A program made the translations under genes and the position numbers. The notes under the pieces are model-generated. The model saw only the letters and a program-made list of their open reading frames with translations, did not search any database and had not been told where the DNA came from. From NCBI RefSeq assembly GCF_024296865.1, contig NZ_CP101134.1:992001-1056000 (forward strand): a stretch of 64,000 nucleotides of DNA, in the 5' to 3' direction. Below are positions 4,985-59,014 of the stretch, piece by piece (the first letter of the stretch is position 1; every line of letters begins with the position of its first letter). The DNA comes from Sphingobacterium sp. LZ7M1 (GTDB lineage: Bacteria; Bacteroidota; Bacteroidia; Sphingobacteriales; Sphingobacteriaceae).

Positions 4985-6871
4985 ATGAATTTAAATTACT
5001 TGTTCTCTGTTCTACTTATGATGATGGTTTTGGTTTCATGTAAGCAAGAGCAGGGCGGTCAGTTACATGTGCCAATAGAGGACTTTTTCGTTAAGCCAGA
5101 AAGGACCTCTTTTAAACTGTCTCCCGATGGAAGCAAGGTAGCTTATCTGGGGGTGCATGACCATTGCAAAAATATCTTCATTCTCGACCTCGAAGAACCC
5201 GATTCTTCCAAACAACTTACTTATCAGGTCAACCTGAATGTCCAAAGCTTTTTCTGGCTAGACAACAAACGCATTGTCTTTTCCAATACGCAATCTCCAA
5301 CGGATAGTTTGAGGATGTTCCAGATTGATGTGAAGACCGAAAAAAGACAAGCTCTATTTTCACCTGAAAAATCAAGATTGCGCTGGGTCTATCCCATTGT
5401 TGAGAAAGACAATAGCCTAATGGCTGGGATGAACTTACGTGATTCCTCGCTGTTTGACCTGTATAGGATTTACCTAGACGGTAGAAAGCCCCAATTGGTG
5501 CAGCATAACCCAGGAAATGTGGTGAGCTGGATCGGAGCTCCTGATGGAGTCGTAAGGATGGCATTGACCAGTGATAGTGTACAGGAGTCATTATTGTACC
5601 GAAAGCATGAAGGACAGCCTTTCAAAGAGGTCATGAAGAATGATTTCGAAACCATTTTTGTACCCCTTGGCTTTGTAAAGGATTCCGATAAAAATGTCTA
5701 TGCGCTTTCTAATCAGAACCGAGATAAGATGGCTTTGGTGGAGTTTGATGCCGAAAATGGCAAAGAAATCCGCAATATCTATGAGAACAAACTTGGTGAC
5801 CTTGGCGTAGAGGGCTATTCTGCCAACCTACAGGAAATGCTGTATGCGACTTCCTTCATCGATAAGTTCAAAAAGAACATCTTCAACGAAAAATATGAGC
5901 AGGTCTATAAAAAGCTGAAAAAGAAATTCAAAGGTTCCGAAATCGGTTTCTTGGATAGCGACAGCAGCTTAACTGGATTTGTCGTACGTGTGTATAGCGA
6001 TATCCATCCTGGAGAAACCTATTATTACAATCAGAAAAAGGATGATATCCAACTGTTGAACGAAGAGAATCCTAAACTCAAGGATTTGGAGTTCAATCCT
6101 ATGGAGGAAGTGGAATTCCTGTCTCGGGACAACAAGAATATACATGCCTATATCACGTATCCTAAAAATAAAAGAAAGAACAGCCCTGTTGTGGTATTGG
6201 TCCATGATGGTCCTAACAGGAGATCAGAATGGGGGTTTGATCCGGAAGTTCAGTTCCTTGCCAATCGTGGCTACACCGTGTTCCAGGTGAACTATCGTGG
6301 TTCAGTGGGCTATGGTAAGGACTTTTGGACCTCAGGTTTCAAGGAATGGGGCGGTAAGATCCAATCTGATATTACGGATGGTGTCGCTTGGTTGATCCAT
6401 CAGGGGATAGCCGATAAGGATAAGATTGCCATTATGGGCACCGGTTTCGGCGGTTATTCTGCCCTGTATGCTGCTGCATTTAATCCTTCCCTTTATAAAT
6501 GTGCCATATCCTCATCGGGATATAGCAACCTATTCACTTATTTCAGGGAAATTCCCCCTCATCTAAAACATTACGTACAGTTATTCTATAGAATCATTGG
6601 AAATCCAGAGACTGAACCAGAATTGTTTCAAGCGATTTCCCCAATTTTCCATGCTGATAAGGTTCGAATCCCTATCCTATTTTTCCAAGGTGGAAAAGAT
6701 AAATACAGTTCGGTAACCGATGCTAATCAATTTGTTGGTAAATTGAAGGGCAATGAAGTTCCAGTGCGTTATATCTTTAAGAAAGAAGAAGGCAAGAGAT
6801 TTAGGAACGAAGAGAATATCGTAGAATATTATCAGGAGATAGAGAAGTTTCTTGCAGTGTACCTGAAGTAA
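4985..6871 (+). CDS. S9 prolyl-oligopeptidase-like lipoprotein, predicted catalytically dead
   Basis: This 628-residue protein has a lipoprotein signal (VLVSC, lipid Cys near residue 19), an N-terminal seven-bladed-propeller-like half and a C-terminal alpha/beta-hydrolase half (from about 390: VVLVHDGP, YRGSVGYGKDF). In S9 enzymes the nucleophile sits in GxSxGG. Here the segment is GTGFGG, with Gly487 (codon GGT) where Ser is expected. The catalytic Asp is present (Asp572), but the His expected in EGHGF is Lys604 (EGKRF). The Asp-to-Lys distance of 32 residues matches the usual Asp-His spacing, which supports the alignment. The reading frame is intact, so it is best read as a conserved-fold pseudoenzyme. 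The histidine kinase gene starts 6 bp downstream and may share the transcript. Confidence 0.85.
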   Translation: MNLNYLFSVLLMMMVLVSCKQEQGGQLHVPIEDFFVKPERTSFKLSPDGSKVAYLGVHDHCKNIFILDLEEPDSSKQLTYQVNLNVQSFFWLDNKRIVFSNTQSPTDSLRMFQIDVKTEKRQALFSPEKSRLRWVYPIVEKDNSLMAGMNLRDSSLFDLYRIYLDGRKPQLVQHNPGNVVSWIGAPDGVVRMALTSDSVQESLLYRKHEGQPFKEVMKNDFETIFVPLGFVKDSDKNVYALSNQNRDKMALVEFDAENGKEIRNIYENKLGDLGVEGYSANLQEMLYATSFIDKFKKNIFNEKYEQVYKKLKKKFKGSEIGFLDSDSSLTGFVVRVYSDIHPGETYYYNQKKDDIQLLNEENPKLKDLEFNPMEEVEFLSRDNKNIHAYITYPKNKRKNSPVVVLVHDGPNRRSEWGFDPEVQFLANRGYTVFQVNYRGSVGYGKDFWTSGFKEWGGKIQSDITDGVAWLIHQGIADKDKIAIMGTGFGGYSALYAAAFNPSLYKCAISSSGYSNLFTYFREIPPHLKHYVQLFYRIIGNPETEPELFQAISPIFHADKVRIPILFFQGGKDKYSSVTDANQFVGKLKGNEVPVRYIFKKEEGKRFRNEENIVEYYQEIEKFLAVYLK

Positions 6872-6877
6872 TCACAC

Positions 6878-8542
6878 ATGGTGAAAAGAGCAAGTAAATA
6901 CCGGAAAAACATTGGGTTGTTGATCGCCTTTTTGGCTTTTTTGACAGTCCTGTATATCATTTCAGTTTTCTTGGCCAGGACAATGATGTCCAACTTTGTA
7001 GAATCTGAGTTTTATAACAGAAAGGTCGATGTCTTTGATGCGACCCTAAAACCCTTTAATAGCTTTTTCAATAACGATATTTCCGAAGTATCCAATTATC
7101 AGGGGTACCTCGATTCCACACATGCCAGCAATTATTCTGAAAAGGTCTTGCGAAAGAATCCATTCGTTGACGAATTGGTGTTTTATGACGTACTGTTCAC
7201 CAATCAGAACCCCACCGTTCGCGGTGTACGCTTTCAAAACCTCCTGATTTACCCCCGATCGATCTTTTCCTATAAATTGGACAAGGAAAATAAATTGATC
7301 AAGGCCAGCCTTTCTTCGGTAGATAACAGGCCTAATGCCGATGACTTCAACAGCATGGCCATTAAAATGGTGAACTTCTTGGATGTCCTGGATGATTCTA
7401 CTTCCTTGAGCGAAAATGATATCTATCGGATCTTCTATAATACGGTTCCGGGAAAAATAACCTATCTGAACATCCCACGGGTCAATACCCTTCGCGCCTA
7501 TAAATCCATGATGGATGATACGACGGCAATGACGGCGCCTGTAGCGTTTGACCAAGATTTATTCGTCTATAAGGTTAATCCTCAGAAGATAAAAATAGTC
7601 AATAACCAAAAGAGATTGTATGAAACCATTCGGATCAAGGCCATAGCTGACCCTAATGTGATGGAAGAAAAAGCCTTTCTTTCCACAGATATGCCGTTGC
7701 CAGGTGCATTATCCGACTATAAACTGCAATTTGATTCCTCAGAACATTTTTTGAGAGGAGAGATCAATAGAAGATTTTTTCCTGTAGTGTTGGGCGTTTC
7801 CCTATTATATTTAATTTTGTTATTGATTATTTATTTGATTTATAGGAATATCTCCATCAATAGTAGGTTGTTCCAATTGCAGTATGATTTTATCAATAAC
7901 CTGACCCATGAGTTTAAAACGCCGGTCAGTGTGATCAAGATAGCGGGTAACAATATCCGAAGTGCTGAGAAGATAAGTGATCAAGAGCGCGCGATGTACG
8001 GAAAGATCCTAGATCAGGAAGCTGATAAGTTAAATAATTTGATGAATAAGTTACTGTCTTTCACGCAGATAGAAAATAAATCATTAAAATTTAAAGGAGA
8101 ATACATTGATTTGAACAGTTTTTGCGAGGAAGTATTTGCGGGTACACGGATTAAATATCCTGATCTGAACCTGAGCTATCACATCGATGTGGACAGCAAA
8201 ATGCATACAGATCCGGTTTTATTGAATTCCGTGTTCCAGAATTTAATTGATAATGCGTACAAATATTCAGAAGTTTCAAGAAAATTTATTGATATTAGTG
8301 TACAACAATCTAAAAAGCACTTTATCATGAAGTTTAGTGATAAAGGAATTGGGATAAACAGAAATGAACTTAAAAACATATTCAAGAAATTTTATAGAGT
8401 AAAGAATCAGTTCAATCAAGGTGGGAGTGTTGGGCTTGGATTGGCATTTTGTAAAGAGATTACCGAATTTATGGGTGGAGAGATCAAAGTCAGTAGTGTG
8501 GAAGGAGAGGGAACGACCTTTACTTTGACTTTTCCTAAATAA
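6878..8542 (+). CDS. Sensor histidine kinase
   Basis: This 554-residue membrane sensor has a transmembrane helix at about 13-34, a periplasmic sensing region of about 265 residues without a recognisable domain, and a second helix at about 301-323. The HisKA domain has phospho-acceptor His344 in NLTHEFKTPVSV, and the C-terminal ATPase carries the N box (NLIDNAYKYS), G1 (DKGIGI) and G2 (GGSVGLGLAF) motifs. There is no HAMP domain. It should phosphorylate the response regulator encoded 13 bp downstream. The stimulus is unknown. The peptidase-like lipoprotein upstream could be a signal partner; that is inference from proximity only. Confidence 0.92.
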   Translation: MVKRASKYRKNIGLLIAFLAFLTVLYIISVFLARTMMSNFVESEFYNRKVDVFDATLKPFNSFFNNDISEVSNYQGYLDSTHASNYSEKVLRKNPFVDELVFYDVLFTNQNPTVRGVRFQNLLIYPRSIFSYKLDKENKLIKASLSSVDNRPNADDFNSMAIKMVNFLDVLDDSTSLSENDIYRIFYNTVPGKITYLNIPRVNTLRAYKSMMDDTTAMTAPVAFDQDLFVYKVNPQKIKIVNNQKRLYETIRIKAIADPNVMEEKAFLSTDMPLPGALSDYKLQFDSSEHFLRGEINRRFFPVVLGVSLLYLILLLIIYLIYRNISINSRLFQLQYDFINNLTHEFKTPVSVIKIAGNNIRSAEKISDQERAMYGKILDQEADKLNNLMNKLLSFTQIENKSLKFKGEYIDLNSFCEEVFAGTRIKYPDLNLSYHIDVDSKMHTDPVLLNSVFQNLIDNAYKYSEVSRKFIDISVQQSKKHFIMKFSDKGIGINRNELKNIFKKFYRVKNQFNQGGSVGLGLAFCKEITEFMGGEIKVSSVEGEGTTFTLTFPK

Positions 8543-8555
8543 TGTTTAGAATACT

Positions 8556-9263
8556 ATGAATAAAGATATAACTATTGCCGTTGTAGAGGATGATGATAAC
8601 TTAAGGTTCTTGGTTAGTCACCGTCTACAGACCGAAAATTTTCAAGTAATTCAATGCAGTGATGGCTTGGAAGCTGAGAAAATCATCTTAGACCAAAAGC
8701 CAGATATCGTTCTATTGGATTGGATGCTGCCAGGTAAAGAAGGGATAGATGTATGTGAGTCCGTAAGAAAGTCTGGATTTGAGAACATCATTATTATGAT
8801 GACCGCCAAATCCCAAGATATCGATAAAATTGATGCCTATAGCTACGGCGTGACCGATTATATCACCAAACCATTCAATATGGATGTTTTAGTGGCCATG
8901 ATCGAGAATAAAGTACGCTTTTTTGTGCCTAAAACCCAGAACGAGGTTTACCATTTCGGTGATACCGAACATCACCCCAATGTACATTCACTGATCAGGG
9001 ATGGCAAGAAAATCGAGCTTACAATCCTTGAAAACCGAATCCTCTTGCACTTCTTACAGAACAAAGGTAGAGACATCACCCGCGAAGAATTGATGGAGGT
9101 GGTATGGGGCTATAGTTCCAACGTGAATACCCGTACTTTGGACATGCACGTTGTGCGCTTAAGAAAGAAAATCGAAACCAATCCTGACAAGCCTCATTAC
9201 TTGCAAACCGTTCGAGGATTGGGCTATAGATTCATCAATGAAGAGACTGATGATGTAAGTTAG
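8556..9263 (+). CDS. OmpR/PhoB-family response regulator
   Basis: This 235-residue protein has a receiver domain (acidic triad Glu11/Asp12/Asp13, phospho-acceptor Asp55 in LLDWMLPG, conserved Lys105 in ITKPF). A C-terminal winged-helix domain has the family-typical ENRILLHFLQNKGRDITREE and VRGLGYRF. It should be the partner of the upstream kinase and bind direct-repeat DNA sites. PhoB itself belongs to this class, but nothing in the sequence shows that this regulator is PhoB, so I leave it unnamed. Confidence 0.92.
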   Translation: MNKDITIAVVEDDDNLRFLVSHRLQTENFQVIQCSDGLEAEKIILDQKPDIVLLDWMLPGKEGIDVCESVRKSGFENIIIMMTAKSQDIDKIDAYSYGVTDYITKPFNMDVLVAMIENKVRFFVPKTQNEVYHFGDTEHHPNVHSLIRDGKKIELTILENRILLHFLQNKGRDITREELMEVVWGYSSNVNTRTLDMHVVRLRKKIETNPDKPHYLQTVRGLGYRFINEETDDVS

Positions 9264-18826: not shown

Positions 18827-18904
18827 TTAACAATTAATTAACTAGAGACTAATATTAACATAATAGAGTATTAATATTCACGTAACAATGCGATTATACT
18901 TTTG
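18827..18904 (+). promoter_or_regulatory. Six-hexamer 11-bp phased array plus -7 element (TonB receptor operon 1)
   Basis: Hexamers begin at 18827 (TTAACA), 18838 (TTAACT), 18849 (CTAATA), 18860 (ATAATA), 18871 (TTAATA) and 18882 (GTAACA), exactly 11 bp apart. The -7 element TACTTTTG begins at 18897, 15 nt after the last hexamer start. No -33 box is visible. The layout is that of PhoB/PhoP-type activator sites and is repeated before two other receptor operons in this window. Confidence 0.65.
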
Positions 18905-18924
18905 CAACATAATATTAACATTGT

Positions 18925-21675
18925 ATGAATTGTATTAAACGAGTATTTTTATTGTTGGTTGTTTGCTTCGGCGTGATGATGAGCTATGCCCAGCAAGCAC
19001 CATTTGGAGTAAAAGGGACGGTTGTGGACGTGGAGTCCTACCAACCTTTGGCAGGTGTTACAGTAACAATTGCGAACTCCCAGTTGGGCACAACAACGAA
19101 TGACAAAGGTGAATTCTTTATCCCCTTACCTAGCGATAAATCCGCAGAATATCTGATTCGTGCGACTCTAATGGGGTACGACGCCCAAGAAATGAACTTT
19201 ACGCTACAGTCTAGCGACACTGAGTTTGTGTCCTTTGCGCTGAAAAATGCAGATGCGGTGATCGAAGAAGTGGTGGTGACCAGACGCCGTGAAAAATTTA
19301 CAGAATTAGCCTTATTGGAAGAAAGAAAGAAATCCAACCTGATGGTAGAATCCATCGGTGCACAGGAGCTATCTAGAAAAGGGGTTAGCGATGCAAGAGC
19401 AGCATTGACTAAAATGGCGGGTGTATCGAGACAAGAAGGTGTAAAGAACGTATTTGTACGCGGGTTGGGCGACCGTTACAACTCTTCTTCCCTAAACGGA
19501 TTGCCATTACCTTCGGAAGATCCATTGAATAAAAATATCTCTTTAGATTTCTTCAGTTCAGATGTGATCCAAAGCATTAATGTAAACAAGACTTTCAACT
19601 CGAATATTGCTGGAGATGTGACTGGTGCAAACGTTGATATCTTTACAAAGGAAGCTACCGGAAACAGTTTTGAAATCAATGTTGGCGGAGGAGTTAACTC
19701 GCAAACGGTTGGTGCAGATAATTTCAGGAGAATTGACGGAACAAATTGGTTTGGAAGCCTTCCTGGCGGTTCAAAACCAAAAATGACCAGTTTTGATACC
19801 TATAATTTTGGTAATAGCTGGAATCCTAATCCTCAAGGATCTCTTTTCAATTCAAACTTCAAATTGTTGGGAAATAAAAGGGTATTGATTGGAAACAATC
19901 CATTGAGCATTTTCTTCACAGCCAGTATGGATTCCAAATACCGTTATGCAAATGGAAAGATCCAGCAGTCTGATGACCAAGGTCGTTTGATCTTGAACCA
20001 AGATTTCGTGAGAAATGAATATACCGTTTCCCAAACCGGTATGTTGAACCTAAGGTACACTTGGGGAAATAGCAATGTGAGCTTTAACTCCCTGTATATC
20101 CATGACCAAAGACAGGACTTAAGTGATTTCCATGGATTTGAGGAGAATGTGGGTGATGCCAAGACTGACGTAGTTGACATGAGAAGACAACAGGTGAATG
20201 ATAACCATGTTTTTGTCAATCAATTATTGTCCAAACTATTCTTGAATGAAAAATGGTCTGCAGATTTAGGTTTGGCCATGAATAATGTGATCGGCAATGA
20301 GCCAGATCGTAGAATTAACAGAGCGGTAACCAAGGAAGCCACAGGTACTAACCTTTCCAGAAACAGTGCTGGAGAGAATGAAAGATACTTTGGGGACATG
20401 GATGAAACCGGTTATATAGGAAAAGCGATCCTGAACTATAACCTGGATAACGAATCAGGGCTGGAAAGAAAGATCTCCTTCGGTTATACCGGGAACTTTG
20501 TGAACAGAAATTTCAATTGGTGGGAATTCAACCATCAATTAAGAGCCGTTGCTGCGCCTCCATTAGATTTAAACAATATCGAGGCTATCATTGGTGCTGA
20601 AGGTTACAGAAAGTATTTTGATTTGGTAACCAATAGAGGTGGAGATGGAGATGTAAGCAACTTGAACCCTTTCTACTATAAAGGTAGCAGAAGGACCCAA
20701 AGTGGTATTGCTTCAGCAATCTACCAGTTTACCCCTGAATTTACAGCGGTATTGGGCTTGCGTTTGGACAATGTATTCCAATCTGTAAGTTATCAAACCA
20801 ACCTACCGGATTATTCAACTTCTAACTATAATAAAATCAACAAGAACTATTTCTTGCCAAGTTTGAATTTGAAATATTCCTTGACAGAAAATATGTTCTT
20901 GAGAGCTTCAGGTTCCAAAACCTATACCGTTCCCCAGTTTATTGAGTTAGCGCCGGTAAGATATAGAGGTAATAACAACTTCACCCAAGGTAACCCGGCA
21001 TTGAATCCATCGGAGAGCATCAATGCAGATTTCAAATGGGAGTTTTATCCTAGCAATTCAGAATTGGTATCCCTTGGTCTATTCTACAAGAATATCAAAA
21101 ACCCAATTGCGAAGGTTGAATCTGGTTCATCAGGAAGTACATTGAGTTTCTATAACATCGGTAAGGATGCGGTCGTATTCGGTGCGGAATTGGAATTGAA
21201 GAAAGATTTGATCAAAACTTCAGGTGCCAACGGAGAAAACGTATTGTCAGGAGGCTTGAATGTTTCTTATCTGCATTCGGACCAGAAGTTGAGTCTGGAA
21301 GGAAGATCCTTCAATAAAGAGTCTGACCAAATGGAAGGAGCATCTCCATTGCTAGTTAACGCAGACTTAACCTATAAATTAGCTTTTGCTAACGTGGATT
21401 TGACGCCTTCTGTTGTATTCAACTATTTCTCGGATCGTATTTTCTCCTATGGTACATCAGGGTACAAGAACATCATGGAGAAAGGTATTCCATCTTTAGA
21501 TTTTGTTACTCAGGCGATGATTAAGAAGCGTATTGGCGTTAATTTAAAGATTGAGAACATCTTGAACCCGAACAGGGAATTGTCGCGTGAGATTGGTGGG
21601 GACTCGCCAAAAGTGCTGATTGAGCAGTACAAAAGAGGGGTAGATTTTAACCTAGGAATTTCTTATAAGTTTTAA
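18925..21675 (+). CDS. TonB-dependent outer-membrane receptor
   Basis: This 916-residue protein has a signal peptide ending near MSYAQQ and a carboxypeptidase-regulatory-like domain (about 27-112, VKGTVVDVESYQPLAGVTV). The plug domain (about 115-240) includes VSRQEGVKNVFVRGLGDRYN and NGLPLPSEDPL. A 22-strand barrel ends in the aromatic GISYKF. It should import a TonB-energised substrate. It is not SusC-like: there is no SusD gene nearby and the plug lacks the SusC signature. Its partner is the beta-helix lipoprotein encoded 70 bp downstream. The promoter array suggests phosphate control, so the substrate may be a phosphorus compound; this is inference. Confidence 0.9.
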   Translation: MNCIKRVFLLLVVCFGVMMSYAQQAPFGVKGTVVDVESYQPLAGVTVTIANSQLGTTTNDKGEFFIPLPSDKSAEYLIRATLMGYDAQEMNFTLQSSDTEFVSFALKNADAVIEEVVVTRRREKFTELALLEERKKSNLMVESIGAQELSRKGVSDARAALTKMAGVSRQEGVKNVFVRGLGDRYNSSSLNGLPLPSEDPLNKNISLDFFSSDVIQSINVNKTFNSNIAGDVTGANVDIFTKEATGNSFEINVGGGVNSQTVGADNFRRIDGTNWFGSLPGGSKPKMTSFDTYNFGNSWNPNPQGSLFNSNFKLLGNKRVLIGNNPLSIFFTASMDSKYRYANGKIQQSDDQGRLILNQDFVRNEYTVSQTGMLNLRYTWGNSNVSFNSLYIHDQRQDLSDFHGFEENVGDAKTDVVDMRRQQVNDNHVFVNQLLSKLFLNEKWSADLGLAMNNVIGNEPDRRINRAVTKEATGTNLSRNSAGENERYFGDMDETGYIGKAILNYNLDNESGLERKISFGYTGNFVNRNFNWWEFNHQLRAVAAPPLDLNNIEAIIGAEGYRKYFDLVTNRGGDGDVSNLNPFYYKGSRRTQSGIASAIYQFTPEFTAVLGLRLDNVFQSVSYQTNLPDYSTSNYNKINKNYFLPSLNLKYSLTENMFLRASGSKTYTVPQFIELAPVRYRGNNNFTQGNPALNPSESINADFKWEFYPSNSELVSLGLFYKNIKNPIAKVESGSSGSTLSFYNIGKDAVVFGAELELKKDLIKTSGANGENVLSGGLNVSYLHSDQKLSLEGRSFNKESDQMEGASPLLVNADLTYKLAFANVDLTPSVVFNYFSDRIFSYGTSGYKNIMEKGIPSLDFVTQAMIKKRIGVNLKIENILNPNRELSREIGGDSPKVLIEQYKRGVDFNLGISYKF

Positions 21676-21745
21676 CAATAAATTAATTTTCACCTAACAG
21701 AAAGGTTAACTGTTAACGGTTCCTTTGTGTAGAAATAAAAAGATT

Positions 21746-22912
21746 ATGAAGACAAAATTATTTTCGATTTTAGCAGCAAGTGCTTTAGCTTTTACAGCAT
21801 GTACAGACACCAATGTGCCAACTCCAACGACTCCAAAAAGTGAGCAGGATCTAATTGGTAAGATTGACAAGAACACAAAATTAGATGCGAACGTTACTTA
21901 CAATTTAACAGGTGCATTGTACGTTGAGTCTGGCGCTACTTTAGAGATCCCAGCTGGGACTACTATCAAAGCGAAGAGCGGTGGAACGAGTGTATTCTTG
22001 TTGGTAAAACCAGGAGGTAAAATCGTTGCAGAAGGAACAGCAGAAAAACCAGTTGTGTTTACATCAGCTTCAGCTACACCAAAAGAAGGTGACTGGGGTG
22101 GAGTAATCATCAATGGTAAAGCTCCTCTTTCAGGTCCTGCAGGTGTAGTGACACAAAACACTACAGAGATGGATGCAACTGTAAAATATGGTGGTGACAA
22201 TCCAGCTGACAACTCAGGTGTACTTAACTACGTGAAGATCGAATATACCGGTGCTCGTATGGACTCAAACAAAGAGCACAATGGTTTAACATTGAACGGT
22301 GTTGGTAATGGTACAAAACTTTCTAACCTTCACTTAAGATATGGAGCTGATGATGCAATCGAATTCTTCGGAGGTACAGTAAATGCTACAAACATTTTGG
22401 TTGAGAACTGTTCAGATGATATGTTTGACTTTACTGAAGGTTATAGCGGTACAATCACAAACGCTTACGGTATCCGTATGAAAGGTTACTCTGATGCTAC
22501 TGAGGATCCAAGAGGTATCGAAGCTGATGGAAACTTTGACGGTAAAAACCCAACCCACGTTAACCAATCAAATTTCAAGGTAAATGGAATGACTATCGTT
22601 GTCAATGCAGCTGATATCAAAGGACAAGATGGTAAAGTTTCATTGGTAATGAACAAAGAGGTTTTCAAAATCAGAAGAGGTGCTAAAGCGACTATCACTA
22701 ACGCATTCGTTAAATTTGGTCCTGGAACTACTCCTTATGTATTGATCGATACAGATGGCGCTAACCCAGAAACTTCAATTAGCTACAACTTTGATCCAGC
22801 TAATGGTTTAGACAAAGCGAAAATCGTTAATCCTGTAAATGCATTGTTAACTAAAGATGCTTCTAAAGGTGCTGATGTAAATGCTTTTGCTTGGACTAAA
22901 TTCCAATTCTAA
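21746..22912 (+). CDS. Surface-type beta-helix lipoprotein, partner of the TonB receptor
   Basis: This lipoprotein of about 388 residues has the lipobox ALAFTAC (lipid Cys about 19). A repetitive body suggests a right-handed beta-helix (GALYVESGATLEIPAGTTIKA, GDWGGVIINGKAPLS, LTLNGVGNGTKLSNLHLRYG). Such proteins with GxWGG(V/L)xxxGKAP are widespread in Bacteroidota, are sometimes misnamed multidrug transporter, and have no established function. It lies 70 bp after the receptor stop, with an inverted-repeat-like GTTAAC-rich stretch in between and a strong terminator after it. I infer a surface lid or substrate-capture lipoprotein. The start at 21746 gives a proper lipoprotein signal; an upstream in-frame start at 21725 does not. 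Confidence 0.8.
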   Translation: MKTKLFSILAASALAFTACTDTNVPTPTTPKSEQDLIGKIDKNTKLDANVTYNLTGALYVESGATLEIPAGTTIKAKSGGTSVFLLVKPGGKIVAEGTAEKPVVFTSASATPKEGDWGGVIINGKAPLSGPAGVVTQNTTEMDATVKYGGDNPADNSGVLNYVKIEYTGARMDSNKEHNGLTLNGVGNGTKLSNLHLRYGADDAIEFFGGTVNATNILVENCSDDMFDFTEGYSGTITNAYGIRMKGYSDATEDPRGIEADGNFDGKNPTHVNQSNFKVNGMTIVVNAADIKGQDGKVSLVMNKEVFKIRRGAKATITNAFVKFGPGTTPYVLIDTDGANPETSISYNFDPANGLDKAKIVNPVNALLTKDASKGADVNAFAWTKFQF

Positions 22913-34245: not shown

Positions 34246-34301
34246 TTAACAAATTAATAACATCCAGTTAATAATCTAGTAAATCCCTATAAATATTTTT
34301 G
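34246..34301 (+). promoter_or_regulatory. 11-bp phased hexamer array plus -7 element (receptor-phytase operon)
   Basis: Hexamers begin at 34246 (TTAACA), 34257 (ATAACA), 34268 (TTAATA) and, weaker, 34279 (GTAAAT), each 11 bp apart. The -7 element TATTTTTG begins at 34294, 15 nt after the last hexamer start. The geometry is identical to the arrays at 18827-18904 and 58959-59014. A phytase operon is an expected phosphate-starvation target. Confidence 0.65.
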
Positions 34302-34322: not shown

Positions 34323-37133
34323 ATGAGATTATTCCTATTATTCCTATTCAATTTCATTTGTTGTATTTCCTTTGCTCAAAGGACCACCCCTTTGGCTACA
34401 ACGACCATCCTAAAAGGTAAGGTCATGGACAACAATGATCATTTTTCTTTACCAGGTGCAACTTTAAGAATTGCAGAAGGCAATAAATTCACGGTTTCCG
34501 ATGCAAACGGAAATTTTGAATTCCTAAACCTTCCTGCTGGAACTTATACCGTATCGGTTGACTATTTAGGTTACCAACATTTTGAACAAAAGATCCAGAC
34601 TACCGATATGGCTGTTGAAATCTTTTTGGAGCCAGCTAGCAAAACAATTGATGAGATCCAAGTCATTGGAGATATTGCAAAAGGTCAAGCAAAAGCCTTG
34701 AACCAGCAAAAAAATAACAGCAACATCACGAATATTATTTCTTCTGACCAAGTGGGCCGTTTTCCGGATCAGAATATCGGAGATGCCTTGAAAAGGGTTC
34801 CGGGTATTACGATGCAAAATGACCAAGGTGAGGCAAGAAATATTATTGTCCGTGGTCTTTCCCCAGAATTGAACTCTGTGACCTTGAATGGTGACCGTAT
34901 TCCTTCAGCAGAAGGTGATAACCGTAATGTTCAGATGGACTTGATTCCTTCCGACATGATTTCATCGATCGAAGTCAACAAAACATTGACCCCTGATATG
35001 GATGCTGATGCGATCGGTGGTAGTGTGAACCTGATCACTCGTGCCGTTCCGAATAAGCAACGTATTTCTGCTACCCTAAGTGGTGGATATTCCCCAGTTC
35101 GTGAAAAAGCAATCTACAATGGATCTTTGATCTATGGTAACCGATTCCTGGATAACAAGATGGGCTTGGTATTGAGTGGAACGATGCAGACCAATGATTT
35201 TGGTTCAAACAACATTGAAGCCGAATGGGATCAAAAAGATGGAAATGTATTCCTAAAAGAAATGCAGATCCGTAAATATGATGTGGTCCGTGTCCGTAGA
35301 AGTGTATCAGCTGCCTGGGACTACAACTTTAATTCTAGAAACAGGATTGCCTTAAATGCCATGTACAACTGGCGTGATGACCGCGAAAACCGTTTTGCAA
35401 CCAAGTTCTCAAAGCTAAAGTACGATAATGCAACCAAGTCTTACACAGGACTAATTGAACGTGAAACTAAAGGCGGTATTGATAATAGCAGAAACAAAGG
35501 CCGTCGTTTAGAGCGTCAGACTGTATTGAACTTTTCATTGCAAGGGGAGCACCTTATTTCACCTTTGTTGGATATGGACTGGGCTGCTTCTTATTCAAGA
35601 GCCTCTGAATGGAGACCTAACGAAAGGTATATCTCTTATGAAAAACCATCGGGACCTCTTTCTGTCGATATTTCTGATCCTTACCTGCCATTTATTGCGA
35701 ATGCAAACGCAGATTTGGACAAATTTGAACTTAATGAAATCACAGAAAATGAAAACAACACCCATGAAGATGAATTCGGTGCCAAATTAAACTTCCGTAT
35801 TCCTTTGTCGGTGATTGCAGATCAAAAAGGAAGGATCCGTTTTGGTGGACGTGTAAGGTTGAAAACCAAAGAAAGAGATAACAATTTCTTTGAATACAAG
35901 CCCGTTACAGGCTTTGAGACCTTAACTTCTGGAATGCCATTGGTGACATGGGACGCCAAAACTTGGGACCAAGGTGAGCGTTATGCTCCAGGGACCTTTG
36001 TAGACAAAAACTATTTAGGAGGTTTAAACCTAAGCGATAAATCTAAATTTGAAGAAGAGGCAAACCCAAAAGAGTTCCTTTCCCAAAACTATAAAGCAAA
36101 AGAGCAGATCTTTGCAGGTTATGTACGTTGGGATCAAAATATTACGGAAAGAACAGCCTTGATCTTGGGAGCTCGTTTGGAGCATACTCGCATTGACTAT
36201 ACCGGTAATAATGTCGTTGATGAAGAAGAATTAAAAGGTCAGATCCGTAATGAAAACAGTTATACCAACATTCTTCCAGGTATTACCTTAAAGCATAATT
36301 TCTCGGACAACTTTATCCTTCGTGCTGCTGTGACAACCAGTTTGGCAAGACCAAACTACTACGCCTTGGCGCCATATGTTAACTCCAACATAGATGATAA
36401 AGAATTGTTCGCAGGCAATCCAAACTTGAAAGCAACCTATTCGACCAACTACGACATCATGTTGGAACGCTATTTCCAAAATGTGGGTATTATTTCCGGA
36501 GGTGCATTTTATAAAAACCTAAAGAACTTTATCTACATGTACAATGATAGGAGTTTTACCAATGCTCGTTTCTCGGAAGTGTTCCCAAATCTAGCAAACC
36601 CTATCGCTGCAGGTGAAACATGGGACTTTGCACAGTTTAGAAACGGCGATAAGGTAGATGTTTATGGTTTTGAAGTTGCTTTCCAGAGACAGTTGGATTT
36701 CCTTCCTGGAAAATTCCTGCAAGGATTCGCCATCTATGCAAACTATACCTTTACCGAGTCAAAAGCTAAGGGTATCTCAGGTGAAGACGGTGTGTTGCGT
36801 GAAGGCCTAGGTCTGCCTAGAACTGCCCCGCACATGTTGAACGGATCCTTGTCTTGGGAAAACAATAAATTCTCAGCTCGTGTATCTGCAAACTATACGG
36901 CAGCTTACTTGGATGAAATCGGAGATGATGCATTTACCGATGCTTATTATGACAAACAGTTTTTCCTAGATGCAAATGCTGCATATAAAGTAACTAAGTC
37001 ACTTCGCATTTTTGCTGAAGCCAACAACCTAACCAATCAACCTTTGCGTTACTACCAAGGTGATGTACAGCGCATGCGCCAATTAGAATATTACAAGCCG
37101 CGCTATACCCTTGGAATTAAATATGACTTATAA
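34323..37133 (+). CDS. TonB-dependent receptor, phytate-locus type
   Basis: This 936-residue protein has a signal peptide (LFLLFLFNFICCISFAQ), a carboxypeptidase-regulatory-like domain (about 28-112), a plug with VGRFPDQNIGDALKRVPGITM and NIIVRGLSPELNSVTLNGDR, and a barrel ending in YTLGIKYDL. It belongs to the long TonB-receptor group (TonB-Xanth-Caul type) rather than SusC. The phytase gene starts 10 bp after its stop, so it probably imports phytate or its lower inositol phosphates. No SusD gene is present. Confidence 0.9.
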   Translation: MRLFLLFLFNFICCISFAQRTTPLATTTILKGKVMDNNDHFSLPGATLRIAEGNKFTVSDANGNFEFLNLPAGTYTVSVDYLGYQHFEQKIQTTDMAVEIFLEPASKTIDEIQVIGDIAKGQAKALNQQKNNSNITNIISSDQVGRFPDQNIGDALKRVPGITMQNDQGEARNIIVRGLSPELNSVTLNGDRIPSAEGDNRNVQMDLIPSDMISSIEVNKTLTPDMDADAIGGSVNLITRAVPNKQRISATLSGGYSPVREKAIYNGSLIYGNRFLDNKMGLVLSGTMQTNDFGSNNIEAEWDQKDGNVFLKEMQIRKYDVVRVRRSVSAAWDYNFNSRNRIALNAMYNWRDDRENRFATKFSKLKYDNATKSYTGLIERETKGGIDNSRNKGRRLERQTVLNFSLQGEHLISPLLDMDWAASYSRASEWRPNERYISYEKPSGPLSVDISDPYLPFIANANADLDKFELNEITENENNTHEDEFGAKLNFRIPLSVIADQKGRIRFGGRVRLKTKERDNNFFEYKPVTGFETLTSGMPLVTWDAKTWDQGERYAPGTFVDKNYLGGLNLSDKSKFEEEANPKEFLSQNYKAKEQIFAGYVRWDQNITERTALILGARLEHTRIDYTGNNVVDEEELKGQIRNENSYTNILPGITLKHNFSDNFILRAAVTTSLARPNYYALAPYVNSNIDDKELFAGNPNLKATYSTNYDIMLERYFQNVGIISGGAFYKNLKNFIYMYNDRSFTNARFSEVFPNLANPIAAGETWDFAQFRNGDKVDVYGFEVAFQRQLDFLPGKFLQGFAIYANYTFTESKAKGISGEDGVLREGLGLPRTAPHMLNGSLSWENNKFSARVSANYTAAYLDEIGDDAFTDAYYDKQFFLDANAAYKVTKSLRIFAEANNLTNQPLRYYQGDVQRMRQLEYYKPRYTLGIKYDL

Positions 37134-54059: not shown

Positions 54060-55820
54060 TTAATAACCTGGGTTCTGGGTCAGGTTTTTATTGGCATCCA
54101 TCTCTTGCGCAGAGATTGGCCAATACTCATCTTTGTTTTCCTTGAAGACTACAGCCTGAGTGCCGAAGACTTTACTTGCTACACTGTGGTTGTACACTGG
54201 GTTTGCATTCTCATCGATACGGGTCAATACGTTTTTATCCCAAGCATTAGCCAATCGGTTTAGATAGATATGGCCGTTCATGACTTGGTTTGCAATTCCC
54301 CAGCGACGAAGGTCGTGCCAGCGCAAACCATCATTGGCCAACTCTACCTTTCTTTCATAGCGTAGGGCTTGGCGCAATTGCGCCTGAGAAAGTCCTGTAG
54401 GAAGGTTTGGCATATGCGCGCGTTTACGGATCTGGTTGATGGCATCATACACTGTACCGTCGATGCTGTTATCTTCAATCTTCGCTTCTGCATAGATCAA
54501 CAGGAGTTCTGCATATCTCAACACACCAACATTTAAGTCCGAGAATCCGGAAACCGAAGTCGTCGGGAAGTCCACTAGATCGGTATGTTTACGCCATAGA
54601 TATCCGCTAAAGGAACGGTATGCATTGGTGGCATCAGCATTGGTCTGCGAACTAGGTTTGGTAGAGGTACCGTTGATTACAGGCCAATAGTTGTTCACTT
54701 TGGAGAATGAGGCATTTGGCTCGAATTGGAATCCCATAAACCTGGAATTCGGACGAACAGTGTAAAGGTCCAAACGAGGGTCTCTGTTTTCAAAAGGTTT
54801 CTCCGGGTTGTAACTGGTCGATTCCGTGATGTACTTGCCATCTAGATCCTGGAAAGAGTCGATGAAGTTTTGGGTCGGTCCCCAATAACATACGCCTTTC
54901 CCAAGTCTGGAAGCTAGATAATAACCTTGATTATGTACGTTGTCGCTGATATTGCGGTTGTATTCAGCCACCCAAATCCATTCTTTGCTGCTTTCGTATC
55001 CTTTGTGGCCAAATATATTGGCAACTTCTGGTTCGCCTTCCTTGTGGGACTTGTTGGCAAAGTCGATGGAATTGTCGAACTCCGTCAAGGCATGGATCCC
55101 ATTGGATAGGGTGATAGCTTTTTGTGATGCTTCGCTAGCGAGCTTGTATTGTTTTGCATAGAGGGCAACTCTGGCTTTTAGGGTATAGGCAGCAATGCTG
55201 GATGCCCTAGAAAACTTTGTTCCGGCCTGTGATTGGGGTAGGTTGTCTGCAATGGCAGTCAGTTCATCCAAGATGAATTTTTCTACCTCAGCTTTTTTGG
55301 TTCTACCCGGTAGTTCATCGCCCAGTTTCAATGCGTTTTTCAATAAGGGAACATCGCCATACAATTCGATCAGTTGGGAATAGGAATAGGCACGGATAAA
55401 TCTCAACTCTGCATCGATCTTTTTGTAATCAGCTTCAGACATGCTGGTTTTGATGTCTGCCAATTTATCCAGGACATCATGTACCCTTCCGATGGTTTTG
55501 TAATGGGCAGCCCAAGGTTTGGTTGCCAAGGCATTGTCAGTCGTGATAGAACTGGTAATCGGTGATGTATAGTTGTTTCCCGGTCTAGCATAGCCAATAT
55601 CGGTGATGTTGTCCATAACGTGCCAGATAGGGGTGCTGGAAGCATCTAGAAGGGTTAAACCTTTGTATGCTCCTAAGAGTCCCATTTCAGCTTCTTTTTG
55701 GCTGGCTGGGAAGGTTTCAGACGATGGGCCGTCCAATGGTAATCGGTCTAGGTCGCAAGAGCTCATGAGAGCTGCGCATAATAAACTGATTCCTATGATA
55801 GATTTTGTCTTCTTGATCAT
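54060..55820 (-). CDS. SusD/RagB-family surface lipoprotein
   Basis: This 586-residue lipoprotein has the lipobox LMSSC (lipid Cys22), an N-terminal DLDRLPLDGPSSETF, TPR-like helices (AELRFIRAYSYSQLIELYGDVPLL) and a C-terminal SusD motif (RYERKVELANDGLRWHDLRRWG). It sits on the SusC barrel as a lid and captures substrate. It starts 5 bp after the SusC stop. The ligand is not readable; the phosphoesterase next to it suggests a phosphorylated compound. Confidence 0.93.
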   Translation of the reverse strand: MIKKTKSIIGISLLCAALMSSCDLDRLPLDGPSSETFPASQKEAEMGLLGAYKGLTLLDASSTPIWHVMDNITDIGYARPGNNYTSPITSSITTDNALATKPWAAHYKTIGRVHDVLDKLADIKTSMSEADYKKIDAELRFIRAYSYSQLIELYGDVPLLKNALKLGDELPGRTKKAEVEKFILDELTAIADNLPQSQAGTKFSRASSIAAYTLKARVALYAKQYKLASEASQKAITLSNGIHALTEFDNSIDFANKSHKEGEPEVANIFGHKGYESSKEWIWVAEYNRNISDNVHNQGYYLASRLGKGVCYWGPTQNFIDSFQDLDGKYITESTSYNPEKPFENRDPRLDLYTVRPNSRFMGFQFEPNASFSKVNNYWPVINGTSTKPSSQTNADATNAYRSFSGYLWRKHTDLVDFPTTSVSGFSDLNVGVLRYAELLLIYAEAKIEDNSIDGTVYDAINQIRKRAHMPNLPTGLSQAQLRQALRYERKVELANDGLRWHDLRRWGIANQVMNGHIYLNRLANAWDKNVLTRIDENANPVYNHSVASKVFGTQAVVFKENKDEYWPISAQEMDANKNLTQNPGY

Positions 55821-55825
55821 TGTTC

Positions 55826-58800
55826 TTAAAATTTAAAGTCTAAACCAAATGTGTACACCTTAACCTGGGGGTAGAAGTTACCTGAACCTAAGGTTACTCC
55901 ATCCTGTGCTCCTGAGTTATAATTGATTTCAGGGTCATAGCCTTCGTAGAAGTTTGTTTTTGTAAAGAGGTTCTGTCCGTTGGCATAGATGAATATTCCG
56001 CCGATCTTGCTGTTCGCCAGCCAGCTTTTAGGGATCTCATAGCCTAACTGAACATTTTTCAATCGGAGATAAGAAGCGCTTCTCATCCAGAAATCAGAGT
56101 TCTGCGTATTGTTTGTTGAGGTTACCGATACGCGTGGTAATGAGGCTCCTCTGTTGTCTTCGGACCAGTAGTCCAATTGCCAAGGTTTAATCGCCGAAGA
56201 GTTCACCGCTGGGATCACGTAATGTGAATCCAGGTAGCCATTTGCTTTGGCTACACCTTGCAAAAAGGCACTGAACCTAAGACCCTTGTAGCCTAAGTCT
56301 AGGTTGAATCCGTAGGTATATCGAGGCATGGTGCTGCCGATAATGGTTTTATCTGCATCCGTGATCTTGCCATCCGGGATGGCATTGCCATTCGCATCTA
56401 GATCACCCGCGATGTCCCTGTATCTGATATCGCCCGGTTTTAAGGTGCCGAACTGCTTAGGTCCATTGTCTATTTCTTCCTGGGATTGATAAAGACCGTC
56501 GGATTGGTAGCCGTAAATGGAGTTGATGGAATATCCTTCCTGTTGTCTCAATAACGTTCCTGAAACTTGTCCTTTCATGTCAAGGATCTTGTTCTTTACA
56601 TCGGAAATATTGGCGCCGATACCTAATTTAAAATCGCCGAATTGGTTGTCGTAACGCACCGATGCTTCCCATCCTTGGTTCTGTACCTTGGCCGCATTTT
56701 GGAATGGTGCATTCTTACCATATAGCTCAGAAACGTAAAGTTTCATCAGGATACCATCGGTCTGTTTTGTGTACCAATCGAATGTAACGCTGAAGTTGTT
56801 GAAAAGGGATGCATCCAATCCTAAACCGGCCATGGTGGTTTCTTCCCACAATAGGCCCGAGTTTGCCATGGTGTTCAAGGCAATCATTTGGTCAACCGCA
56901 CCACCAACGGAAATACTTCCTAGATTCAAGGTTTCGATGTATGGTTGGTAGGTTGTTCCGATGTTTTGGTTACCTAGGATACCCCATGAACCGCGGAGTT
57001 TCAACTGGTTGATGGAATTTTTTAGGTCAGCCATAAATGGCTCTTCCGAGATTCTCCATCCAGCAGAGAAAGATGGGAATGCTGCCCAGCGGTTTGATTT
57101 TGCAAACCTGGAACTTCCGTCATAACGAAGGTTGGCTTCCAAAAGGTAACGGCCTTTGTAATCGTAGTTAAATCTTCCGAAAGTGGAAACCAACAGCCAT
57201 TGGAATTGGTTTCCAGCATTGTTCTTGGTTTCTGTGTCTGCACCAGCGTTCAATACCTCATAGGTGTCGTAGGTAAAATCACGACGGTATCCCATCAGGT
57301 ATTTTTCGTCATAAGTTTCTCTTGAGGCACCGAGCATCAAGCTGAAGTTGTGGTCATTGAATGATTTTTGTGCAGTGGTTTGGAAAGAGTAGCTTCCGTT
57401 GAAATAGCGGTAAGCAGATTCAGTCAGTTCCGTAGAAGGTAAGGCTGTGCCCGCTTCGCTTCCGTCTTCGTAATAGGTCATGACTGCCTTTGCGAATTCA
57501 TGGATATTACGGGTGCGGTATCTTGGTGCTGCCATACCTGAGATGCTCAACCAATCGAATGGTTTATAGTTAATGGAAAGGTTTCCCAATAACTCCAGGT
57601 TGTTTACTTTTTTATTGCCACCATCTTCAATAAAAGCTACGGGGTTGTTTTTTACCCAGCCTTCTGACCAAAGGCCATCGCCTACGCGGATTGGGATGTT
57701 GGTTGGCATACGGCCAATATAATTCCAGATAGTTCCTTCATTAGCGATCTGTAAGCGGTTGCTGTTTACGGCTGAAAGGTCAAAACGGATGTTTAATTTA
57801 TCATTTGGATTGATGTCCATATTGTTTCGGAAGGTGTATCTTTTGAAACCGGTGTTGTCAATCAGTCCATCTTGGGATACATAACCCAGGGAAGGAGCCA
57901 CGCGGATCTTCCCAGCGCCGGCATTGAGGGAAACAAAATGGTTGTGGGTGAATCCTGAACCATTTAGGATGCCTTTTTGCCAGTCGAAATTATCTGGGTT
58001 CTCTGCATATAATTTATTGAATTCTTCAAAATCTTTTTCGCTGTAGATTACGGAGCCGTTATCGTTCATGTTGGCATCGTTAAATACTTTCATGAAAGTT
58101 GCACCATCCGTTACCTTCGGGATAAAGGTTGGGTCCTGCCAACCTGTATAGCCTTTGTAGTTTAGGGCAAATTGGTCCTTACCACGCTTAGTTGTGATCA
58201 AGATTACCCCGTTAGCGGCACGGGAACCGTAGATTGCCGCAGATGCTGCGTCCTTAAGGATGGAGATGTTCTCGATCAGGTTCGCATCTACATTGTCCAA
58301 GGATCCTGCTACACCGTCGATGATCACAAGAGGTTCAGAATCTGATCCGCCGAATGAATTGACACCGCGGATACGGATCTGACCTTGGTCGCCGCCTGGT
58401 GCGCCGGATTGGGAGGTTACTGTTACGCCCGGTGCGAGACCTTGCAGGGCAGAGGAGGTGGATACGATTGGTCGTCTTTCCAGCTGTTCGCTATTGATCG
58501 TAGAAACAGCTCCGGTCAGGTTTACCTTTTTTTGAGTCCCATAACCAACCACAACGACTTCGTCCAGGTTGGTCAGGTCGGCTGTAAGGATAACATTGAT
58601 TGTCACTTGGTCCGCAATGGTTCTTTCCGCATTGGCATAACCCATGCTTGCGAAAACCAAAACATCTCCAGTGTTGGCTTCGATAGCATACTCGCCAGTT
58701 GCTGAAGTTTGGGACAAGGCATTAAGATGACCCTTAATGCTGATGGTCACGCCTTCCAAAGGGTTTCCATCTTCATTGGTCACTTTCCCCGAGATATTCT

Positions 58801-58870
58801 TTTGCTGTGCCCATAGCATGCCTATAGGTAGAAAACACAGCAAAAAAATGAGTTGCAGTTGTTTTTTCAT
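55826..58870 (-). CDS. SusC/RagA-family TonB-dependent receptor
   Basis: This 1014-residue receptor has a signal peptide (LLCFLPIGMLWAQQ) and a carboxypeptidase-regulatory-like domain (GKVTNEDGNPLEGVTISIKG). The SusC plug signature is present (NLDEVVVVGYGTQKKVNLTGAVS and IRIRGVNSFGGSDSEPLVIIDG), with a barrel ending in KVYTFGLDFKF. It imports the SusD-bound substrate. Its promoter carries the third phased hexamer array. Confidence 0.95.
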   Translation of the reverse strand: MKKQLQLIFLLCFLPIGMLWAQQKNISGKVTNEDGNPLEGVTISIKGHLNALSQTSATGEYAIEANTGDVLVFASMGYANAERTIADQVTINVILTADLTNLDEVVVVGYGTQKKVNLTGAVSTINSEQLERRPIVSTSSALQGLAPGVTVTSQSGAPGGDQGQIRIRGVNSFGGSDSEPLVIIDGVAGSLDNVDANLIENISILKDAASAAIYGSRAANGVILITTKRGKDQFALNYKGYTGWQDPTFIPKVTDGATFMKVFNDANMNDNGSVIYSEKDFEEFNKLYAENPDNFDWQKGILNGSGFTHNHFVSLNAGAGKIRVAPSLGYVSQDGLIDNTGFKRYTFRNNMDINPNDKLNIRFDLSAVNSNRLQIANEGTIWNYIGRMPTNIPIRVGDGLWSEGWVKNNPVAFIEDGGNKKVNNLELLGNLSINYKPFDWLSISGMAAPRYRTRNIHEFAKAVMTYYEDGSEAGTALPSTELTESAYRYFNGSYSFQTTAQKSFNDHNFSLMLGASRETYDEKYLMGYRRDFTYDTYEVLNAGADTETKNNAGNQFQWLLVSTFGRFNYDYKGRYLLEANLRYDGSSRFAKSNRWAAFPSFSAGWRISEEPFMADLKNSINQLKLRGSWGILGNQNIGTTYQPYIETLNLGSISVGGAVDQMIALNTMANSGLLWEETTMAGLGLDASLFNNFSVTFDWYTKQTDGILMKLYVSELYGKNAPFQNAAKVQNQGWEASVRYDNQFGDFKLGIGANISDVKNKILDMKGQVSGTLLRQQEGYSINSIYGYQSDGLYQSQEEIDNGPKQFGTLKPGDIRYRDIAGDLDANGNAIPDGKITDADKTIIGSTMPRYTYGFNLDLGYKGLRFSAFLQGVAKANGYLDSHYVIPAVNSSAIKPWQLDYWSEDNRGASLPRVSVTSTNNTQNSDFWMRSASYLRLKNVQLGYEIPKSWLANSKIGGIFIYANGQNLFTKTNFYEGYDPEINYNSGAQDGVTLGSGNFYPQVKVYTFGLDFKF

Positions 58871-58958: not shown

Positions 58959-59014
58959 CGAAAATAGCTTAATAATGTTAAATCAATATTAAGGCTTTGT
59001 TTTCGTTATGTTAA
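58959..59014 (-). promoter_or_regulatory. 11-bp phased hexamer array plus -7-like element (SusCD operon)
   Basis: Reading the minus strand, hexamers begin at 59014 (TTAACA), 59003 (AAAACA), 58992 (TTAATA) and 58981 (TTAACA), each 11 nt apart. TATTTTCG (one mismatch to TAnnTTTG) begins at 58966, 15 nt after the last hexamer start. This is the same register as in the other two receptor promoters, and there is no -33 box. Confidence 0.65.

Follow-up and report, generated by a model that had tools for sequence, protein, structure and literature searches.

Phased TTAACA repeats in a fixed promoter register: predicted Pho boxes of outer-membrane uptake operons in Sphingobacteriaceae

OmpR-type response regulators commonly bind phased direct repeats, and the PhoP box of Bacillus subtilis is built from TTAACA-like hexamers with an 11-bp period. 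The low-phosphate regulons of the Bacteroidota, which are of importance for phosphorus cycling in soil and around plants, have so far been defined through omics, and we have seen no promoter code for them. In a review of the Pho regulon the PHO box is described as a series of 11-nt direct repeats of which the consensus is species-specific, with CTGTCAT in Escherichia coli and GTTCACC in Streptomyces coelicolor (PMC4415409). PhoB of Bacteroides fragilis binds to the pstC promoter, and pstC requires PhoB under low-Pi conditions (PMC3547664). For PhoP of Riemerella anatipestifer a DAP-seq motif was obtained with TTTAACA as the most conserved letters, and according to the authors PhoPR is upregulated in phosphate starvation (PMC9603813). 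Putative Pho boxes have been marked upstream of plcP-cluster genes of marine bacteria in a study that mentions Bacteroidetes with PlcP (PMC4796936). Since these boxes are marked in the accessible part of that paper without their sequence, an earlier Pho-box prediction in the Bacteroidota is possible. Among openly licensed PubMed Central papers no description of the consensus and register reported here was found for the Bacteroidota.

The window analyzed here is a stretch of 64,000 nucleotides from the single-contig genome (4.59 Mb) of Sphingobacterium sp. LZ7M1 (contig NZ_CP101134.1, positions 992,001 to 1,056,000). According to an initial annotation, three operons in this window share hexamers of the form NTAA(C/T)(A/T) that are phased at 11 bp and lie at a fixed distance of 15 nt from a common −7 element, while a −33 box is lacking. 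The phasing and the distance were confirmed at all coordinates. Predicted Pho box 1 (18827–18887, plus strand) consists of the six hexamers TTAACA, TTAACT, CTAATA, ATAATA, TTAATA and GTAACA, starting at 18827, 18838, 18849, 18860, 18871 and 18882, and its −7 element TACTTTTG (18897–18904, plus strand) begins 15 nt downstream of the first base of the last hexamer. The weakest of the three, predicted Pho box 2 (34246–34284, plus strand), has four hexamers in the same phase (TTAACA, ATAACA, TTAATA and GTAAAT at 34246, 34257, 34268 and 34279) and the −7 element TATTTTTG at 34294–34301 on the plus strand, again at an offset of +15 from the last hexamer. Predicted Pho box 3 is on the minus strand (58976–59014), where the hexamers TTAACA, AAAACA, TTAATA and TTAACA follow each other at 11 bp from 59014 down to 58976 and the −7 element TATTTTCG (58959–58966, minus strand) has the same +15 offset. 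Two of the 14 hexamers, AAAACA and GTAAAT, depart from the proposed form, which the other 12 follow, and the −7 element of array 3 has one mismatch (TTCG). A full TTTG is absent from all three 40-nt stretches upstream of the −7 elements, as had been claimed for the −33 box; the third stretch contains a partial ATTG.

To find further sites we used a pattern taken from the initial consensus, comprising three hexamers and the −7 element with at most three mismatches, and a reversed pattern as control. The complete genome gave 30 matches, against 7 for the reversed pattern. Located behind the better matches were pstS (PF12849) followed by pstC, a PhoU_div gene (PF01865) followed by a PHO4-family Pit transporter gene, the alkaline phosphatase gene phoA (PF00245), a second PF00245 enzyme, and two PHP-like genes (below the Pfam cut-off), one of which by eye precedes a SusCD-like pair. 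Receptor genes and a nonspecific endonuclease gene with a weak site were also found there. The pstS, phoA, PhoU_div/Pit and other genes outside the window had played no part in building the consensus. For the other pattern matches, chiefly those at three mismatches, no phosphate link was visible; the match at a gene beside a urease-like cluster (L057), those at L047, L048, L056 and L059, and similar three-mismatch matches were not counted as regulon members.

A model, R1, was constructed purely at the sequence level by combining the three window sites with eight of the sites found elsewhere in the genome, 11 in total. The endonuclease site was dropped from the original set of 12 because it was gapped by MAFFT, and it was not recovered when the genome was scanned with R1. 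The member sites scored 22.8 to 33.5 bits, the lowest value being that of the phytase site, itself a training member, and the best non-member in the genome reached 17.7 bits. Since the members are the training sites their scores prove nothing alone; what the gap does indicate is that the R1 members leave few strong sites unaccounted for in this genome. Among the pattern and R1 matches listed there was no box at a second pstC homologue (G000:C1:2423637-2424488). The Pit-partner protein of this strain is 100% identical to a protein of Sphingobacterium cellulitidis, the closest named one among the matches listed.

Application of R1 to the genomes of 60 relatives in the family Sphingobacteriaceae (E ≤ 0.01) gave 87 matches distributed over 48 genomes, with no match in the other 12. 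When the own genome is included the total rises to 98 matches, 11 of which are the training sites; 49 of the 61 genomes and 19 of the 22 genera are then represented. Reversed R1, with the sites written backwards and thus with equal information content, matched once in the same 61 genomes. Seven of the 87 sites in relatives had no downstream ORF that could be found and were left out; the remaining 80 downstream genes were compared with Pfam. PhoU_div proteins, the partners of Pit, were encoded by 28 of these genes and CarboxypepD_reg proteins of the receptor type by 20 (19 with a Plug domain), followed by sigma-70 region 2 proteins (8), PBP_like_2 proteins (PstS, 4), polyphosphate kinases (Ppk, 3), alkaline phosphatases (2) and phosphate-selective porins (2). 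Likely false matches, such as a glycosyl hydrolase 1 and an aldo/keto reductase, are included in the rest. The initial annotation had expected such a matrix to be enriched before known phosphate genes, and this is what we observed, to a marked degree. In the own genome the genes concerned were pstS, phoA and PhoU_div/Pit; in the relatives they were those for PhoU_div/Pit, PstS, Ppk, alkaline phosphatase and phosphate-selective porin. The sigma-70-type genes, which by eye are of the ECF type, are L122, L136, L142, L163, L168, L174, L183 and L186. A box was found before the polyphosphate kinase genes L158, L177 and L203, and polyphosphate storage may thus be part of the Pho regulon.

The register was examined with 80 named Pit-partner loci of Sphingobacteriaceae, the best 80 of at least 581. 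NTAAYW hexamers and a TAnnTTTG element with at most one mismatch were counted over a grid of 110 cells, with spacings of 7 to 16 and offsets of 10 to 20. The combination of spacing 11 and offset 15 occurred in 76 of the 80 Pit promoters, and the next-best cell contained 13. The core of these promoters reads TTAACATTAAC TTAACATTn and TAnnTTTG, and only 2 of the 76 have TTG at the −33 position. The conserved core of the predicted box is the two promoter-proximal repeats, with the family consensus TTAACATTnnC repeated, and the number of copies further upstream varies.

The initial annotation also proposed a comparison of the phased matches with shuffled AT-rich DNA. The window contains 14 matches to three TTAAYA hexamers at 11 bp with at most three mismatches, where 1.2 would be expected (sd 1.08; maximum of 6 in 100 shuffles). 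The individual sites were assessed with a matrix of 47 distinct Pit promoter sites, all of them at loci of other genera, with which both window strands (127,912 positions) were scored. The receptor site (18860) ranked first and the SusC site second, and the phytase site came at rank 105. When each AT-rich upstream region was resampled 2000 times with a first-order Markov model, the observed best score was reached by none of the resamples for the receptor and SusC sites and by 203 of 2000 for the phytase site. A matrix of 48 Pit sites, including one from a Sphingobacterium-labelled MAG (L251), gave 0, 193 and 1 of 2000 for the receptor, phytase and SusC sites. The receptor and SusC sites thus withstand this comparison and stand alone, but the phytase site does not and, given the resampling result, needs the relatives: genome G046, of another genus, has a clear in-register box of 22.9 bits before a receptor gene (L131) of which the product is 59% identical to the receptor of the phytase operon. 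A weak, tentative second box of the first operon (21672–21727, plus strand), located before its lipoprotein-like gene and with the −7-like sequence TTCCTTTG at 21720, scored 6.9 bits, and the Pit-only matrix placed it 30th among the 127,912 positions. For single sites of this kind, which are weak individually, chance phasing is possible; the set as a whole is not due to chance.

The genes behind the three boxes were assigned by Pfam and BLASTP. Box 1 precedes a TonB-dependent receptor gene (18925–21675, plus strand), with a product homologous to Fjoh_0545 (34% over 953 aa), the receptor encoded beside phoB in F. johnsoniae, and a lipoprotein-like gene (21725–22912, plus strand), with no Pfam match and a product homologous to Fjoh_0546 (41% over 327 aa). 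The latter lipoprotein is of the FII type of F. johnsoniae, and homologues with a box of their own are present in three relatives (L167, L182 and L192). Box 2 is followed by a TonB-dependent receptor gene (34323–37133, plus strand; Fjoh_1368 homologue, 59% over 920 aa) and a phytase gene (PF02333; 37111–38199, plus strand; Fjoh_1367 homologue, 63% over 333 aa). Box 3 lies before genes on the minus strand for a SusC-like receptor (55826–58870) and a SusD-like lipoprotein (54060–55820), with a calcineurin-like phosphoesterase gene (PF00149; 52871–53974) downstream of the pair on the same strand. Relative G059 has a box before a gene for a receptor 61% identical to that encoded at 18925 (L160) and also before a gene for a SusC 74% identical to the window SusC (L151).

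According to published data, homologues of the first two operons are strongly induced in F. johnsoniae when phosphate is depleted. The FC column of the transcriptome data in Table 1 of the F. johnsoniae study lists values under Pi depletion of 8.02 for Fjoh_0545, 9.91 for Fjoh_0546, 9.22 for Fjoh_1368 and 5.76 for Fjoh_1367 (PMC8115612). For the third operon no clear counterpart of SusC was seen among the F. johnsoniae genes compared, which were those of Table 1 and of the 0.8 Mb of genome covered by BLASTP with the window operons. As F. johnsoniae genome we took G336, a presumption with which the gene content agrees when compared with Table 1 of PMC8115612. It has a row of genes for a glycosyltransferase-like protein, a porin (PF07396), a PhoR-like protein, PhoB, a receptor and a lipoprotein, as well as a phytase gene beside a receptor gene, MauG (PF03150), and an alkaline phosphatase with GDPD_2 (below the Pfam cut-off); PhoX, which has no Pfam match, was assigned from its adjacency to MauG only.

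With a matrix from the own genome and the family we ranked 409 F. johnsoniae genes that have an upstream gap in the compared stretches, using ten induced genes listed beforehand; the other Table 1 genes were unplaced or operon-internal and stayed outside this ranking. The ten genes took ranks 2, 4, 5, 7, 16, 17, 146, 192, 303 and 407 of 409 (Mann-Whitney p = 0.005). Six of the ten were within the top 17 (p = 4e-7), a cut-off that was chosen after the ranks had been seen. Rank 1 was OprP, which according to Table 1 is not induced. Scores near those of the family boxes were confined to ranks 1 and 2; ranks 4, 5 and 7 were partial, and 16 and 17 were unconvincing by eye. The low-ranked genes were an ECF sigma gene (146), PhoB (192) and two SusC genes without a box (303 and 407). 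Induced ECF sigma or FecR genes are found in the clusters of these SusC genes, which may therefore be driven indirectly. Pi depletion also induces ECF sigma genes located in PUS clusters of F. johnsoniae (PMC8115612). A cascade from PhoB to ECF sigma factors is suggested, and the 8 of 80 boxes that precede sigma-70-type genes in the relatives fit with this.

A second model, R2, was made from 63 matches in the own genome and the family and used for the phylum. Of 148 Bacteroidota genomes 35 passed E ≤ 0.003, six of these belonging to the own family, so that outside the family the threshold was reached by a minority of genomes. Inspection of 24 loci outside the family gave eight of the phosphate type, namely PstS, PstC (partly by eye), four Na/Pi cotransporters (PF02690) and two phosphate-selective porins, six for which no ORF was found, and ten of mixed nature, three of these receptor-like. 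Many of the phylum-wide matches cover the repeats only and do not share the −7 register. Of 30 pstC loci from the phylum, 10 had an R2 match (E ≤ 0.03), in all cases upstream and on the pstC strand; the own genome and a training relative each contributed one of these 10. The genus of G116, which holds the presumed F. johnsoniae genome and has no member in the training sets, gave R2 matches in 97 of 199 genomes. A downstream ORF was present for 28 of its best 30 loci, with Pfam assignments of PhoU_div (14), PBP_like_2 (10) and Porin_O_P (4). In F. johnsoniae itself the R2 matches were weak, the best having 19.1 bits and lying before a gene that by eye encodes the Pit partner.

We consider it highly probable that the arrays are Pho boxes, at which phosphorylated PhoB would use the 11-bp repeats to switch on genes for phosphorus uptake at the outer membrane and other genes for phosphate scavenging. 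That AT-rich intergenic DNA should produce the phasing by chance is hardly credible: resampling did reach the score of the phytase site taken alone, but the reversed controls yielded 1 match against 98 in the family and 7 against 30 in the own genome, and the exact register recurs in 76 of 80 Pit promoters. Very improbable too is a promoter architecture that belongs to TonB-receptor and SusCD operons in general and has no connection to phosphate. As such an architecture would predict, the receptor type is seen in each of the three window operons and in 20 of the 80 downstream genes in the relatives, but the commonest downstream gene is PhoU_div (28 of 80), accompanied by PstS, Ppk and phosphatase genes, and a matrix derived from Pit promoters alone retrieved two window receptors as its top two matches.

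The boxes could also belong to a different regulator of the OmpR family, with the phosphate genes as a part of its regulon. Binding to phased repeats is common among such regulators, and the genome encodes nine of them. One is encoded in the window together with a histidine kinase (6878–9263); this pair is PnpS/PhoR- and PhoB-like in NCBIfam, with scores far below the cut-offs. We regard this explanation as unlikely, although not to the same degree as the two preceding ones, as phosphate genes predominate among the targets in the own genome, in the family and in a second genus. The PhoB orthologue L064 (L084 3481-4173; G000:C1:1201480-1202172), which lies outside the window, shares 56% identity with F. 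johnsoniae PhoB, and the other eight OmpR-type regulators reach at most 36%. Its NCBIfam PhoB scores were the best of the seven regulators scanned, yet below the cut-offs (229 vs 296 and 225 vs 270), and its identification as PhoB thus relies on orthology and not on a curated score. The regulator of the window pair is 27% identical to F. johnsoniae PhoB and was rejected in favor of L064. Moreover, the best score at the gene at 4985, upstream of the window kinase, was −16.7, against 7.5 bits for a weak array in exact register in the promoter of L064 (21st among 145 genes of stretches chosen largely for boxes). This upstream array is suggestive of phoB autoregulation. No kinase gene is present next to L064, which by eye precedes a glmS-like gene. 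The most likely regulator of the boxes is the PhoB orthologue L064.

The position of the repeats suggests how a predicted Pho box might act. The flavobacterial −7 box is located at −12 to −5 (PMC9723704). On this scale the last hexamer would cover approximately −27 to −22 and the next one −38 to −33, over the −33 element. As the hexamers occupy the −33 position, PhoB probably replaces the −33 contact, by means of an interaction with sigma-A. Under phosphate scarcity phosphorylated PhoB would bind the 11-bp direct repeats and activate the genes for outer-membrane phosphorus uptake together with other scavenging genes. The proposal in the initial annotation that this is the Pho box of the lineage and that the three operons form a phosphate regulon is supported by the enrichment at phosphate genes and by the Pi-induced F. 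johnsoniae homologues of two of the operons; it is very probable that all three belong to a regulon of phosphate starvation. A wider scenario, in which our confidence falls somewhat short of even, is that repeated TTAACATTnnC is an ancient Pho box shared by the Bacteroidota that became locked at 15 nt from the −7 element in Sphingobacteriaceae and Flavobacterium, with PhoB providing the −33 contact, and that gain of boxes by receptor operons and ECF sigma genes turned SusCD/TonB importers of the carbohydrate type into phosphorus importers, some of them through a route from PhoB to ECF sigma and FecR.

With a consensus and an exact register, regulons can be read from genome sequences. The consensus points to unnamed members, including FII-type lipoproteins, receptors, ECF sigma genes and Ppk, and it offers a simple mutational route to study PhoB activation of a TAnnTTTG promoter that has no −33 element.

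Among the described systems, the F. johnsoniae PHO regulon resembles the present one in its phytase-receptor pair, its receptor-lipoprotein pair beside phoBR and its SusCD-like (PusCD) systems with phosphatases; the main text of that paper uses none of the terms promoter, motif and binding site (PMC8115612). The PhoB regulon of B. fragilis is similar in that PhoB acts at a pst promoter, whereas the word consensus is absent from the main text of the study and no box sequence was seen in its accessible part (PMC3547664). The R. anatipestifer motif shares the TTTAACA letters and comes from the same phylum (PMC9603813). In the available text of that paper it is likened to the motif of ArcA and discussed with respect to virulence and respiration, and it is not tied by the authors to phosphate-uptake genes; a phased register, pst and phosphatase are not mentioned there (PMC9603813). 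The B. subtilis PhoP box has nearly the same hexamer and period, but it belongs to a Firmicute promoter without the common −7 register. The E. coli PhoB box is alike in having 11-nt direct repeats before Pho-regulon genes and a response regulator of the PhoB/PhoP type (PMC4415409). Direct repeats with an 11-nt period are present in the window arrays as well as in the Pit promoters, and by position they overlap the upstream sigma element, of which the TTTG is absent and which they would functionally replace. The E. coli-type CTGTCAT core is not found; the core here is TTAACA. In contrast to the E. coli and S. coelicolor boxes, the repeat is TTAACATTnnC and keeps a constant distance of 15 nt from a TAnnTTTG −7 element. 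Switches of the Pho-box type are known, and these are very probably sites for PhoB; for their lineage-specific spelling and fixed promoter register no earlier description was found.
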